From: Verrucomicrobiota bacterium
GTDB lineage: Bacteria; Verrucomicrobiota; Verrucomicrobiia; Limisphaerales; UBA1096
Length of the DNA stretch: 43,750 bases
Assembly (NCBI GenBank): GCA_014382705.1
Contig: JACNJE010000098.1
Location: forward strand, 1-43,750
Reading direction: 5' to 3'
Shown one piece after another: positions 11,042 to 40,935 of this stretch (the stretch's first letter is position 1; each line of letters starts with the position of its first letter). A program made the translations under genes and the position numbers. The notes beneath the pieces were generated by a model that saw only the letters and a program-made list of their open reading frames with translations, had not been told where the DNA came from and ran no database searches.

Positions 11042-11094
11042 TGATCCGCAGATGACGCAGATTTTCGCAGATTCGAGAAAAACAAGCTGCGGAT
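11042..11094. repeat. GCAGAT-type hairpin repeat, copy 1 (truncated right arm)
   Basis: Bases 11042-11074 are identical to 24062-24094. The left arm ATCCGCAG (11044-11051) pairs with CTGCGGAT (11087-11094). It lies between the convergent ceramidase-fold and acetyl-CoA synthetase genes, and on the minus strand its right side is preceded by a T-rich run. Confidence 0.82.
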
Positions 11095-17597: not shown

Positions 17598-18749
17598 TTA
17601 TTGCGGCCACTGGCCCTCGACGATCGGCCGGGTGGCCAGCTTGGCCGGGTCGATGACGACGTGCTTGATGTTGGTTCGGTTGTGCGTGTAGGTCACGTGC
17701 ACGTTACCGTCGCTGGTCTGGATGACGGCCGGGTAGGAGAATTCGCCCGGCTGGTTCTCCAGCACGAGGGCGGCATCCCACGTCTTGCCGTCCCGCGAGA
17801 CGGAGACGTTGAGCGGCGAGCGGCCGCGCCGGGTGTGGTTATAGACGAGCAACGCACGGCCGTCGGCCAGCACCGTGCCGTCCGCCCCGGCGTTGGGGTT
17901 GGGCAGCTGGGTGCGCTTCATGCGGGTCCATTTCTGGCCGTTGTCGCTCGACCAGCAGTCGGTGAGCCGGCCGGACTTGGTGCGGCAAAGCGCCTGGATC
18001 GACCCGTCCGGATAGGCGAGCAGGGTGGGCTGGATGGCGGCGAAATCGAGCGGGGAGTTGAGCGGCTTGGTCTTGTTCCAGTACCGGTTCTGGACGTAGC
18101 GTTCCATATGCACGCGCCAGCCGGCGTCCTCGAGGCTCGAGCCGCATAGCAGGGTGCCGTTGGCGAGCTCGATCGGCTTGTTCTTCACCGGGCCGACATA
18201 GCCGTCCGGCAGGCGGATCGGCTTGCCCCAGGTCAACCCGTCGTCCGATGATTTTTTCATCATGCCCCACCATTGCCTCGGGTTGGGGCCGACCTTGTAG
18301 AAGAGCAGCAGCGTGCCGCTGGATTGCCGGAACAACACCGGGTTCCAGCACGGGTACTGAATGCGCTTGGCGGTGTCGACACCGTCTGCGACCGGCTTGG
18401 GGGCGGACCAGCCGCTGCCTTCGTTGCGCGACATCCAGATGACCACGTCGTACGCGCCTTCTTCCGCGCCGCCAAACCAGGCGGTCACGATGCCGCCCTC
18501 GATTTCCTCGATGGTCGAGGCATGCACGCCGGCGACCGGCATTTTCTCGGCGATCATCTCGCCGCCATACATTCCCGCCTGGTGCTCGAGGGAGTTGGCC
18601 ACATCGATCTCCACCGTCTTTGCCGACGGTTCCGCAGGGGCGGGCTGGGCCGGCTTCGTGTCGGTTTCCTGTGAAACCCCCGAGCCGGGCAGAACGAGAA
18701 ACACTGTCGCCAGAGTCAGCGCAGTCGCATATTTGAGATAGCGAATCAT
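17598..18749 (-). CDS. secreted sialidase-like (BNR repeat) protein
   Basis: 383 residues with a signal peptide (ALTLATVFLVLPGSGVSQ, about 10-27). The body is a beta-propeller of the BNR/neuraminidase-like type: VHASTIEEIEGGIVTAWFGG, DVVIWMSRNEGSGWS, YPCWNPVLFRQSSGTLLLFYK and GPVKNKPIELANGTLL are strongly conserved family blocks. Asp-box motifs include SSDDGLTWGKP, SSDNGQKWTRM and SRDGKTWDAA. Members are exo-sialidases or act on other sugar ends; the arginine triad cannot be confirmed by eye, so the substrate is open. The gene is 39 bases upstream of the TPR/glycosyltransferase gene and divergent from the HPr operon across a 181-base gap. Confidence 0.85.
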   Translation of the reverse strand: MIRYLKYATALTLATVFLVLPGSGVSQETDTKPAQPAPAEPSAKTVEIDVANSLEHQAGMYGGEMIAEKMPVAGVHASTIEEIEGGIVTAWFGGAEEGAYDVVIWMSRNEGSGWSAPKPVADGVDTAKRIQYPCWNPVLFRQSSGTLLLFYKVGPNPRQWWGMMKKSSDDGLTWGKPIRLPDGYVGPVKNKPIELANGTLLCGSSLEDAGWRVHMERYVQNRYWNKTKPLNSPLDFAAIQPTLLAYPDGSIQALCRTKSGRLTDCWSSDNGQKWTRMKRTQLPNPNAGADGTVLADGRALLVYNHTRRGRSPLNVSVSRDGKTWDAALVLENQPGEFSYPAVIQTSDGNVHVTYTHNRTNIKHVVIDPAKLATRPIVEGQWPQ

Positions 18750-24045: not shown

Positions 24046-24061
24046 CGCTTGGCCAAGGGAG

Positions 24062-24131
24062 TGATCCGCAGATGACGCAGATTTTCGCAGATTCAAAAAT
24101 CGATCTGCGCACATCTGCGAAATCTGCGGAT
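24062..24131. repeat. GCAGAT-type hairpin repeat, copy 2 (complete)
   Basis: A 30-base left arm (24064-24093) and a 30-base right arm (24102-24131) pair at 25 of 30 positions across an 8-base loop. Each arm carries three spaced GCAGAT-like units. It lies between the convergent PqaA-like and NHL lipoprotein genes. The first 33 bases are identical to copy 1 at 11042. An iterated palindrome (24049-24056) sits just before it. Confidence 0.88.
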
Positions 24132-24146
24132 TGAAAAACTGAAAAC

Positions 24147-25262
24147 TCAGCCCTTCACGCGGACGAGCTTCATGATGCGCCCGTCCACGTTCCAGTCCTG
24201 CACGTACAGGTTGCCGTCGGCATCCCAGCCGGAGCCGTGCGTGCCGCTGAAGACACCTTCAATCCAGTCCGCCTGCTTGACGCCATAGTTGCGACCCTGC
24301 TTGGGATCCGGGTTGTGGCCAAGCACAGCCATGATGGTGTTGGTCTTGTCGAGGATCACGACGCGGCCGTGCAGGTCGGGAACCGAGACGTAGTCGCCTT
24401 GGACGGATACCGAGGTGGGCATGCCGAGGCCGCCGATGACTTCGTTGATGTATTCACCATCGAGGCTGTAGTGCAGCAGACGCCCCTTGGGCTGATGGTT
24501 GCGGTCGCAAATCAGCAGCCGGTTCGGCTCGTAGCGGGTGTCGAGCGTCATACCGTGCGCGGTGTTGAACTGGCGCGGGCCATTGCCCTTGGCCCCGAAG
24601 TGCTTCAGGTATTTGCCGGCCTTGTCGAAGGTGAAAATGATGTTGCTGGCGTAGCCGTCGGAGAGAAAGATGCGGCCGTCATTGGACACCGTGATGGCGG
24701 TTGGGCTAAACGGTTTCGCGGAAAGCCCGGACTCGGAAGGAAAGGGCAGCCGCAGCGCGACCTTGCCGTCGGCGGCGTTGAACTTGATGCCCTCCGCGTT
24801 TTTATTGCGTGCCCCGTACAGGTATTCCGTGCCGCCCTCGCTGCGAATCTCGATGTCGTGCAGGTTGGTGTACGGTTCGCCCAGGAAATCACGGGCCACC
24901 TTGCCGTCCGGCGAAAAGGCGATCACGCCCTTGTCGGCGCTGGTGTAGATCGTGCCGTCCTTGCCGATGATCACGCCGCCGTGCGTTGGGCCGATGGCGG
25001 ATTTGCCCTCCGCGGTGAGCCCCCAACCGGGGACGGTGTCAAAGGTCATCAGCCCGGTCCCCATCCGGACACCGGTGGGCGCATCCGGCTTGGCGTCGTG
25101 GTCATGGCCGTCGTGGTCATGGCCGTCGTGATCCCCTTCGGCGTGTTGATGTTCACCCTCGCCATGTCCGTGGTCAGTGTCGTGCGAATGTTGATTGGTG
25201 CATCCGGTTAAAAACAGGGTGGCAAAAAGAAAGGTAAAAAGTGAGGTAAAAAGAGTTTTCAT
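24147..25262 (-). CDS. NHL-repeat beta-propeller lipoprotein with His/Asp-rich N-terminus
   Basis: Start set at ATG 25262 (MKTLFTSLFTFLFATLFLTGC, lipobox LTGC, Cys21), giving 371 residues; the ORF-track start 65 codons upstream is not supported. Residues 24-58 are rich in His and Asp (HSHDTDHGHGEGEHQH, DGHDHDGHDHD), as in metal-binding tails of zinc or copper transport proteins. From about 75 to the end there are NHL-type propeller repeats (DGTIYTSADKGVIAFSPDGK, DGRIFLSDGYASNIIFTFD, KHFGAKGNGPRQFNTAHGM, DGNLYVQDWNVDGRI). It probably sits on the periplasmic side of a membrane. A metal-linked role is an inference from the tail alone. A small lipoprotein gene lies 59 bases upstream on the same strand. 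Confidence 0.85.
   Translation of the reverse strand: MKTLFTSLFTFLFATLFLTGCTNQHSHDTDHGHGEGEHQHAEGDHDGHDHDGHDHDAKPDAPTGVRMGTGLMTFDTVPGWGLTAEGKSAIGPTHGGVIIGKDGTIYTSADKGVIAFSPDGKVARDFLGEPYTNLHDIEIRSEGGTEYLYGARNKNAEGIKFNAADGKVALRLPFPSESGLSAKPFSPTAITVSNDGRIFLSDGYASNIIFTFDKAGKYLKHFGAKGNGPRQFNTAHGMTLDTRYEPNRLLICDRNHQPKGRLLHYSLDGEYINEVIGGLGMPTSVSVQGDYVSVPDLHGRVVILDKTNTIMAVLGHNPDPKQGRNYGVKQADWIEGVFSGTHGSGWDADGNLYVQDWNVDGRIMKLVRVKG
25095..25124. repeat. 15-base tandem repeat in the His/Asp-rich tail
   Basis: GTCGTGGTCATGGCC occurs twice in tandem and encodes repeated D/G/H residues of the NHL lipoprotein's metal-binding-like region on the minus strand. Unit length is a multiple of three. Confidence 0.8.
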
Positions 25263-25495: not shown

Positions 25496-25601
25496 CCCAA
25501 CATGGTGGCGTAGGCTTGTACGGGCTGCGACTAGAACTGCGCGGTCTGCAAGTCGTTTCAAGCGTTCCATGGGAGTCCGGCGAGTGACGGTTAGCCCGAC
25601 G

Positions 25602-39462: not shown

Positions 39463-39523
39463 AAATCAGCGTTCATCTGCGTCTTTGATAGTCGTTCATT
39501 GGGACGCAGATGAACGCTGATTT
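39463..39523. repeat. perfect 21-base inverted repeat, GCAGAT-type copy 3
   Basis: AAATCAGCGTTCATCTGCGTC (39463-39483) is the exact reverse complement of 39503-39523, with a 19-base loop. It shares the CGCAGAT core with the elements at 11042 and 24062 and, like them, lies between convergent genes (the pterin-type gene and the metalloprotease gene). It also marks the edge of the AT-rich island. Confidence 0.88.
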
Positions 39524-39551: not shown

Positions 39552-40796
39552 TTATTTACCAAATAGTTTAGCGAGTCTTGTTCTCCAAGTTTGCAATATT
39601 GGCTTTGTTGAATTTTGTTTATCAAAAAAAGGAGGCTCAACGTTGATTGCGAATTTGTACTTACAAGTTGGGCATATGGCGGTCTGTTCATTGGATTTAT
39701 TCGACAGGCTGATTTCAGTCCCGTCTGCTGGGCATGTCACGACAGAGTATGCTTCTGCTGATGGAGGAGGGAAGCGGTCTTGGTTTTTTGATAAGCGGTG
39801 ACAAATGTATTTTGTATGCTGGATAAAGGCATTTGCCTCGTCACGAATGGGCTTTAATTCATTGGCCATCCGATTAATTTCTTGTTGTTTCTGCATGCTT
39901 TGTAAAAACCTCAATGCAGGATCAGGTACATTGTCTTCTGCAATAGCTACAGCTTTCTTCTGGAGCATATTCAAGCTCTCATGACTCGACTCTAAGAAAG
40001 AGTTGAGTGTCTTGAGAAATGCATGATGTGTATAGACCGCGTGTTTGTTAAGTTCTGCCAAGGTGAGTTGAATCCTTGAGTTGATGGTATAAAATTCTGA
40101 AACTGATTCGTGTATTGCCTCTTTACGGTGATGTCGTATGTCGTAGTGGTGTCCGTATCTAGCATCACAAGTCTGAATCGCTTTTTCTGCTTCTGCGTTT
40201 AGCCCTTGCAACGCATCCGATTCGGAAATATTTCGCATCCTACAAACGAGGCGATATACAAACGCAAATTGGTTTCGATTTAGATAGCCACATGCAGTTG
40301 TTTTCGTGATCGTGCGGGTTCCGTTATCAATTGGTTCATATCGAATATTTGTAGTCTTGCAACCGTTCAACATGAGCTTCCCTAGTCCGAGAAAAACGGT
40401 AGTGATGTCAGTAAGAATCTCGTTTTCCATATCTATGGGAAGTTTGATATGTTTTACTTGGAGCCATTTATGGCAAACCTCGTGACACACAACGGCGATA
40501 AGAGCATCGGAAGAATCCATAAAGTCTGGATCGATAGTGATGAATACATCCGTACCACCTGTGGAGAGATCAATTTGACCCCCAACTTTTTCTTTTTGCT
40601 TCGCAACGGAAACGATAAACGTAAAACCGTGTAATCCTATGAATTGGGCAATGTCTTTAGCTAGACTCTGTATGGACAAATGATTGTGAGTACGAGCAAT
40701 TAACGGAGGCATGACGCGGTAATTCACATTGGCACCAGTCCTTTGCTCTAGAAGTATTAGCTTCTCAACGAAGGCTTTAGCAAATTGGTCAGACAT
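39552..40796 (-). CDS. HEXXH zinc-metalloprotease-like protein with C-terminal zinc ribbon
   Basis: Start set at ATG 40796 (MSDQFAKAFVEKL), giving 414 residues without a signal peptide. The motif AVVCHEVCHKWLQ supplies the HEXXH zinc-binding helix (His105, Glu106, His109); a downstream acidic helix DMENEILTDITTVFLGLG (about 122-139) is placed like the third ligand of gluzincins. Near the C-terminus VTCPADGTEI...ICPTCKYKF looks like a zinc ribbon. The middle is helical and may be coiled coil. No close family is recognised. Codon usage and AT content are unlike all neighbours. It may be a defence, toxin or regulatory protease, but nothing in the context decides it. Confidence 0.65.
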   Translation of the reverse strand: MSDQFAKAFVEKLILLEQRTGANVNYRVMPPLIARTHNHLSIQSLAKDIAQFIGLHGFTFIVSVAKQKEKVGGQIDLSTGGTDVFITIDPDFMDSSDALIAVVCHEVCHKWLQVKHIKLPIDMENEILTDITTVFLGLGKLMLNGCKTTNIRYEPIDNGTRTITKTTACGYLNRNQFAFVYRLVCRMRNISESDALQGLNAEAEKAIQTCDARYGHHYDIRHHRKEAIHESVSEFYTINSRIQLTLAELNKHAVYTHHAFLKTLNSFLESSHESLNMLQKKAVAIAEDNVPDPALRFLQSMQKQQEINRMANELKPIRDEANAFIQHTKYICHRLSKNQDRFPPPSAEAYSVVTCPADGTEISLSNKSNEQTAICPTCKYKFAINVEPPFFDKQNSTKPILQTWRTRLAKLFGK

Positions 40797-40935
40797 AAAA
40801 ACTAGGGGGCAAGATGTGTGTGCGAAGCCACTTTGCACGAGGTCTTAATCAAGAGCTAACATAAAGAAAGGGGCTGAAGTCGTAAGGGAGCTTAGTCCGA
40901 GCAATTCGCCCAATGTGATAGTTGGTTTACCACTA

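Follow-up and report, generated by a model that had tools for sequence, protein, structure and literature searches.

The window analysed here (43,750 nt; positions 1 to 43,750 of contig JACNJE010000098.1, assembly GCA_014382705.1, from a Verrucomicrobiota bacterium of the Limisphaerales lineage UBA1096, hereafter the host) carries three palindromic hairpins (copies 1, 2 and 3) that contain the heptamer CGCAGAT. We consider, with a probability of roughly 0.7, that these hairpins are gene-less forms, resembling miniature inverted-repeat transposable elements (MITEs), of small elements that carry a gene of the GxxExxY family (TIGR04256/PF13366). This reading is carried by what could be established from sequence: the grammar of the arms, the enclosure of the gene between such arms, the co-variation of protein and heptamer, the match of hairpins to element arms, and presence or absence at orthologous sites.

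Inverted heptamer arrays enclose GxxExxY genes

A long-loop planctomycete copy (L056) encloses an open reading frame (ORF) of the GxxExxY type. Within the host, a PF13366 search of 117 relative genomes located one GxxExxY gene on contig C24 (17703-18041) between CGCAGAT arms at 17665-17690 and 18052-18077, and another on contig C60 (25163-25498) between CGCAGAT arms at 25078-25094 and 25574-25590. Inverted heptamer arrays enclosed at least 19 of the best 30 GxxExxY loci compared to 1 of 30 four-helix-bundle loci. Across 188 GxxExxY loci (110 in relatives, 70 in genomes of other phyla that bear hairpins and 8 in plasmid records), inverted repeats and/or heptamer arrays were found around 177 genes, consisting of 106 of 110 in relatives, 67 of 70 in other phyla and 4 of 8 in plasmid records. 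The inverted-repeat score of the flanks had a median of 39 compared to 17 for randomly paired flanks, and heptamer triples were present at 81 of 110 GxxExxY loci compared to 1 of 21 four-helix-bundle loci and none of 37 loci of RAYTs (tyrosine transposases associated with repetitive extragenic palindromic, REP, sequences).

A complete element is about 500 bp long and consists of a left arm of three heptamers, a single GxxExxY gene of ~125 codons and a right arm in mirror image, with a median arm-to-arm length of 498 bp. The arm heptamers follow the pattern C-R-C-N-R-A-T/G/A at a spacing of 8-10 nt; C-R-C runs inward in 118 of 135 cases, a polarity shared by copies 1 and 2 of the window. The same layout was observed in named records from Bacteroides finegoldii, Bernardetia and Sphingomonas parapaucimobilis. 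No GxxExxY genes were found in phage records. On a plasmid of Gemmatirosa kalamazoonensis (L431) the GxxExxY gene was flanked by inverted period-11 AGTCCTTCTTC arrays, and on a plasmid of Fusobacteria bacterium ZRK30 (L430) it was accompanied by a roughly 20-nt direct repeat, GATTTAATCCGTGTACCTAT.

Four-helix-bundle genes, which code for the protein of 23S intervening sequences (IVS), were also tried as the partner of the hairpins and rejected: they too lie in inverted repeats, but these have a period of 7. In relatives, 18 of 21 PF05635 four-helix-bundle loci (L317-L346) were inside inverted repeats whose arms are tandem repeats, for example of CAGTTGT or GGTGCCA; of 11 clearly periodic arms, 10 had a period of 7. 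These genes possibly represent a parallel element class, to which a tail, AAAACTGAAAACTGAG, beside some host hairpins may belong.

The GxxExxY protein

The host C24 and C60 proteins matched TIGR04256/PF13366 with 137.9 and 127.6 bits, respectively (cut-off 35; TIGR04256 match at 1e-40), and the gene inside complete elements is a clear member of this family. Conserved residues comprise G-x-G-x-x-E-x-x-Y, D66, E76-x-K78, Q90 and N107-F108, and 89-100% of 107 sequences retain D66, E76, K78 and E26. A confident AlphaFold model (predicted local distance difference test, pLDDT, 96) displayed a PD-(D/E)XK layout, and its best structural matches were SSO0001, a Cas4 protein, and lambda-type exonucleases, with weak matches to I-Bth0305I and a Holliday junction resolvase. 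A search of solved structures by sequence returned none that was relevant. Judged from conservation and the model, the active site looks intact. In the open-access papers searched, no function of the GxxExxY family is described and the family is mentioned only in passing; PF13366 never appears there in a repeat context and no repeat arms are described.

Heptamers co-vary with the protein and hairpins match resident elements

The arms of relatives can be classed by their last bases, with AG arms mostly at 8/8 to 9/9 spacing, AA arms mostly at 9/9, and AT arms at 9/10, 10/10 or 9/9 and never at 8. The heptamer class changed 4 times (minimum 2) on a tree of 108 proteins from relatives, compared to a shuffled mean of 34, and none of 200 shuffles was as low. 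A cross-phylum tree built from the protein core, with arm-encoded columns removed and other phyla added, required 8 changes (shuffled mean 57, shuffled minimum 47), and both spacing and exact heptamer were likewise clustered on it. The nearest protein from the relative set predicted the heptamer class of loci in other phyla in 47 of 52 cases, a signal that weakened below ~50% protein identity. The host C24 protein clusters with other CGCAGAT 9/10 loci.

PF13366 was detected in 33 of 39 genomes chosen for carrying a CGCAGAT hairpin, and CGCAGAT arms were commoner in hairpin-bearing genomes (16 of 53 compared to 9 of 83; P = 0.006). At the nine non-heptamer positions of the arm, hairpins matched the GxxExxY arms of their own genome at 6.2 of 9 positions and those of other genomes at 4.3 of 9 (permutation P < 5e-5). 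As expected of MITEs, the hairpins have arms in common with a gene-bearing element resident in their genome: hairpin and element arms were identical over 30 nt in five genomes, one of which (G295) has hairpins and gene at one locus. The clearest match was in a Caldilineaceae genome, where the hairpins and the element have in common an unusual AGAA start and GA/GCA spacers.

Could the heptamer arrays be host or general repeats, for instance binding sites of a chromosomal protein, with GxxExxY genes as passengers? Palindromes of several heptamer families do coexist and nest within one genome, and gene-less arrays greatly outnumber genes in some genomes. The gene, however, is closely framed by inward-pointing arms of its own class, the protein clade predicts the heptamer class across phyla, and the arrays are patchily distributed even among close relatives, which makes this explanation unlikely.

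Heptamer grammar, copy number and taxonomic breadth

A first-pass annotation, made from the letters of the window alone, had proposed a genome search for a 33-nt block common to copies 1 and 2. The repeat does recur in the genome, with 47 sites of a two-heptamer motif (CGCAGATNNCGCAGAT, up to 1 mismatch) in the 4.0-Mb host genome compared to 1 site for the reversed control; however, the conserved unit proved to be the CGCAGAT heptamer at 9/10-nt spacing, three per arm, and not the 33-nt block. The grammar obtained from the host genome scan is ATC-[CGCAGAT]-NN-[CGCAGAT]-NNN-[CGCAGAT], an unconserved loop of ~8-22 nt and then the mirror image. Heptamers persist between copies while spacers and loops vary; one of the copy lists was pre-selected for exact heptamers, and the evidence it gives covers the freedom of spacers and loops only. 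A-runs tend to follow the host elements.

The three-heptamer array was present in 32 of 117 relative genomes, with up to 55 sites (reversed control 0) and a patchy distribution even inside one genus. Complete six-heptamer hairpins occurred in at least nine phyla among the matches listed, whose record titles name Verrucomicrobiota, Planctomycetota, Acidobacteriota, Chloroflexota, Pseudomonadota, Bacteroidota, Latescibacterota, Armatimonadota, Hydrogenedentota and Spirochaetota; phyla were assigned from these titles and many of the records are metagenome bins.

The first 21 kb of host contig C171 (L033, L034) contained eight CGCAGAT hairpins, all in one orientation and in same-strand gene gaps, intermixed with CACGAAG, CGCGAAT and CGCAGAG arrays; one gene there has ~2,745 codons. 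Nested, onion-like palindromes were also seen, with CGCGAAG outermost, then CGCGAAT, and a CGCAGAT hairpin innermost (L041:10075-10335, on host contig C120; also L117 and L179), and one RAYT gene (G097) lies within several nested inverted repeats. This nesting may mean that the loops of existing palindromes are favoured targets.

The hairpins of the window

Sequence reading and folding placed all three hairpins where the first-pass annotation had reported them. Copy 1 (11044..11094, plus strand) is a gene-less hairpin of the CGCAGAT 9/10 class with a complete left arm (heptamers 11047-11053, 11056-11062 and 11066-11072), while most of the right arm is lost and a single degenerate heptamer (11085-11091) remains. 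Copy 2 (24064..24131, plus strand) is a complete six-heptamer hairpin of the same class, also in the gene-less form, with left heptamers at 24067-24073, 24076-24082 and 24086-24092, a loop at 24093-24102 and right heptamers at 24103-24109, 24113-24119 and 24122-24128. It is followed by an A-rich tail, TGAAAAACTGAAAA (24132..24145, plus strand), that resembles the tails of the C171 copies and is missing along with copy 2 at empty sites. As had been claimed, copies 1 and 2 share 33 identical bases, TGATCCGCAGATGACGCAGATTTTCGCAGATTC; the arms of copy 2 form the 25 pairs reported for them (86% complementary) over 29 nt rather than 30.

Copy 3 (39463..39523, no strand assigned) had been taken as a third copy. 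Its arms (39463-39483 and 39503-39523, with the loop at 39484-39502) do form the perfect 21-nt inverted repeat with CGCAGAT that was described; however, the palindrome is inside out, with the ATCTGCG arm first and the heptamers reading outward as CGCAGAT-GAA-CGCTGAT. Because of this orientation and the CGCTGAT second heptamer, copy 3 counts as a relative rather than as a third copy. It resembles two outward-facing ends of the host C60 GxxExxY element (GGGACGCAGAT-AAA-CGCTGAT). Copies 2 and 3 folded far better than shuffled sequences (z about -7 to -9) while copy 1 folded barely better (z -1.6/-2.4), since its right arm retains one heptamer. Rfam gave no match anywhere in the window.

Copy 3 is adjoined by a minus-strand ORF (39552-40838, 428 codons) with no Pfam match and a G+C content of 42% compared to 63% for the window, which was probably acquired recently. 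A short palindrome, CGCTTGGCCAAGCG (e.g., 24051-24058), is scattered through host coding and intergenic DNA, in the window and on other contigs, often at 12-nt spacing.

Presence and absence at orthologous sites

At the gap orthologous to that of copy 1 the element was absent in four congeners (G018, G017, G013 and G010), G012 had at most a short footprint, and G006 had a diverged copy at the same place. Eight empty orthologous sites, in seven congeners, were found for copy 2, and their flanks aligned continuously; a further host copy, on C19, was absent in G016 and G008. In G012 the C19 site showed a footprint and the C18a site a mini-palindrome; this assembly contains ambiguous bases, so these could reflect assembly collapse of a hairpin. 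Read from these alignments, the hairpin differences are species-level insertions or losses rather than fixed regulatory parts.

The gene-bearing host elements C24, C60 and C107 were likewise absent in congeners with aligned flanks. The Sphingomonas parapaucimobilis element separates fabD from fabG, two genes that are direct neighbours in S. paeninsulae and Rhizobium. Both hairpins and gene-bearing copies thus show the insertion polymorphism among close relatives that is characteristic of MITEs.

Genomic placement

All three window copies lie in convergent gaps, an observation of the first-pass annotation that holds and from which it had argued for bidirectional terminators or REP-like elements. 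The names it gave to the flanking genes were borne out by Pfam for acs, the PhoPQ/PqaA-like gene and the pterin-binding gene, while 'ceramidase' and 'metalloprotease' were without a Pfam match at E 1e-5.

Host placements were determined in sampled stretches (~0.35 Mb) with a simple codon-usage gene caller. The 28 placements comprised 15 in tandem gaps (8 of them in contig C171), 11 in convergent gaps, 2 that were divergent or edge-limited and none inside genes, compared to a background of 126 tandem, 27 convergent and 33 divergent gaps. When counted as independent loci, 10 of 18 were convergent compared to 27 of 186 gaps (15%; Fisher P = 2e-4). The convergent bias was weak in other phyla (14 of 51 compared to 48 of 292; P = 0.07), where 6 copies were inside called genes. 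Convergent gaps are enriched in the host, yet not obligatory. A majority of copies in divergent or tandem gaps had been named as the outcome that would speak against the annotation's proposal, and the picture is divided, with tandem gaps common and convergent gaps still over-used.

The convergent enrichment in the host and the strong stems of copies 2 and 3 would fit intrinsic terminators acting in both directions, selected between convergent genes and only incidentally mobile. A GC-rich stem leading straight into a T-tract was not found at copies 1 and 2, however, the one weak match at copy 3 is at chance level (0.6 expected), and A-runs tend to follow host elements. Moreover, the hairpins are absent from orthologous gaps of congeners, over half of the host placements are in tandem gaps, and the same architecture surrounds a nuclease gene. 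We therefore regard a role as bidirectional terminators as very improbable, and this part of the annotation was not supported.

Comparison with known mobile systems

REP/REPIN elements, mobilised by the Y1 tyrosine transposase RAYT, are of a similar size range, palindromic and dispersed between genes, and their palindrome has a GTAG or CGTC tetranucleotide at one of its ends (PMC3733652). A search reaching 12 nt from the ends of the window's three copies found no such tag. The REP-associated transposase that the annotation had suggested looking for has two candidates in the host, both Y1_Tnp genes, but neither is flanked by arrays (1.5-kb flanks). Linkage to RAYT genes was assessed in the host, in 16 genomes that carry the element and in 293 from the order: CGCAGAT arrays enclose one RAYT (G097), only ~1 of 58 RAYT loci of the order, and RAYT loci have REP-type palindromes of their own. 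Furthermore, 18 of 20 congeners, which are drafts, had no RAYT match, including the element carriers G006, G007, G010, G012 and G017. The hairpins thus behave like REPs, being scattered between genes and missing at the orthologous sites of congeners, but mobilisation as classical REP/REPIN elements by a RAYT has very little to commend it.

As in REP/REPIN-RAYT systems, short intergenic palindromes are dispersed with many gene-less copies and a patchy distribution, and a complete unit has one small nuclease gene flanked by the same palindromes; the protein here is a PD-(D/E)XK GxxExxY protein instead of a Y1 HUH transposase, and the arms have three heptamers at 8-10-nt spacing with no GTAG/CGTC tag (PMC3116915, PMC2817692, PMC3733652). 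MITEs and their autonomous insertion sequences are alike in that a genome's gene-less copies have the terminal inverted repeats of a gene-bearing element that it also carries, but the present elements have no DDE or serine transposase, no visible target-site duplication, multi-heptamer ends and a complete form of only ~0.5 kb. PD-(D/E)XK homing endonucleases and 23S rRNA IVS also place a gene for a small nuclease or small protein in a stem-forming insert that is missing from related alleles; unlike these, the GxxExxY elements have no fixed allelic target (intron site or rRNA), and the IVS-type genes examined sit in period-7 repeats.

Weight of the evidence and proposed mechanism

Several observations weigh against the hairpins being gene-less forms of GxxExxY elements. 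Among the plasmid GxxExxY loci, 3 of 8 were without arms of this type and 1 of 8 had another repeat. PF13366 was without a match in 6 of the 39 hairpin genomes and in many congeners with few arrays, most of which are drafts. Between complete element and hairpin no clean series of deletions came to light, although some decayed genes with arms were found (L540, L541), and neither a target-site duplication nor a clean excision product was seen in genomes that were too diverged at the junctions. No GxxExxY protein is known to us to have been studied experimentally. Part of the co-variation could also come from gene and arms being inherited together; the persistence of heptamers beside free spacers argues for recognition beyond co-inheritance.

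If the hairpins are gene-less GxxExxY elements, the nuclease from a complete copy (the host C24 gene for CGCAGAT arms) would bind its own heptamer array, probably by contacting it about once per helical turn, or by binding the extruded hairpin, and would nick or cut there. Host replication or repair would then help to copy the element into DNA between genes, often on their 3' side. Palindromes that have these arms but no gene, presumably derived from gene-bearing copies, would be carried along, such that active mobilisation would extend to them in trans.

In the open-access literature searched, no paper was found that links the repeat to GxxExxY or that contains the repeat strings, although a remark elsewhere is possible. 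There is a real chance that the element deserves a class of its own. We judge the odds to be even that it represents a previously undescribed, trans-phylum class of ~0.5 kb mobile elements, with a single-domain PD-(D/E)XK nuclease, a heptamer and spacing code for each lineage and many gene-less palindromes, that is an independent counterpart of REP/RAYT beside the possible parallel four-helix-bundle/period-7 system. Arrays such as CGCAGAT..CGCAGAT, CACAGAG..CACAGAG and CACGAAG..CACGAAG recur in many phyla and are without explanation in the papers searched. Linking the repeat and the GxxExxY family gives each a testable role, with the protein as candidate mobiliser, and suggests a protein-DNA code that may be readable from sequence alone. 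A lone PD-(D/E)XK nuclease would thereby join the known partners of dispersed palindromic repeats.
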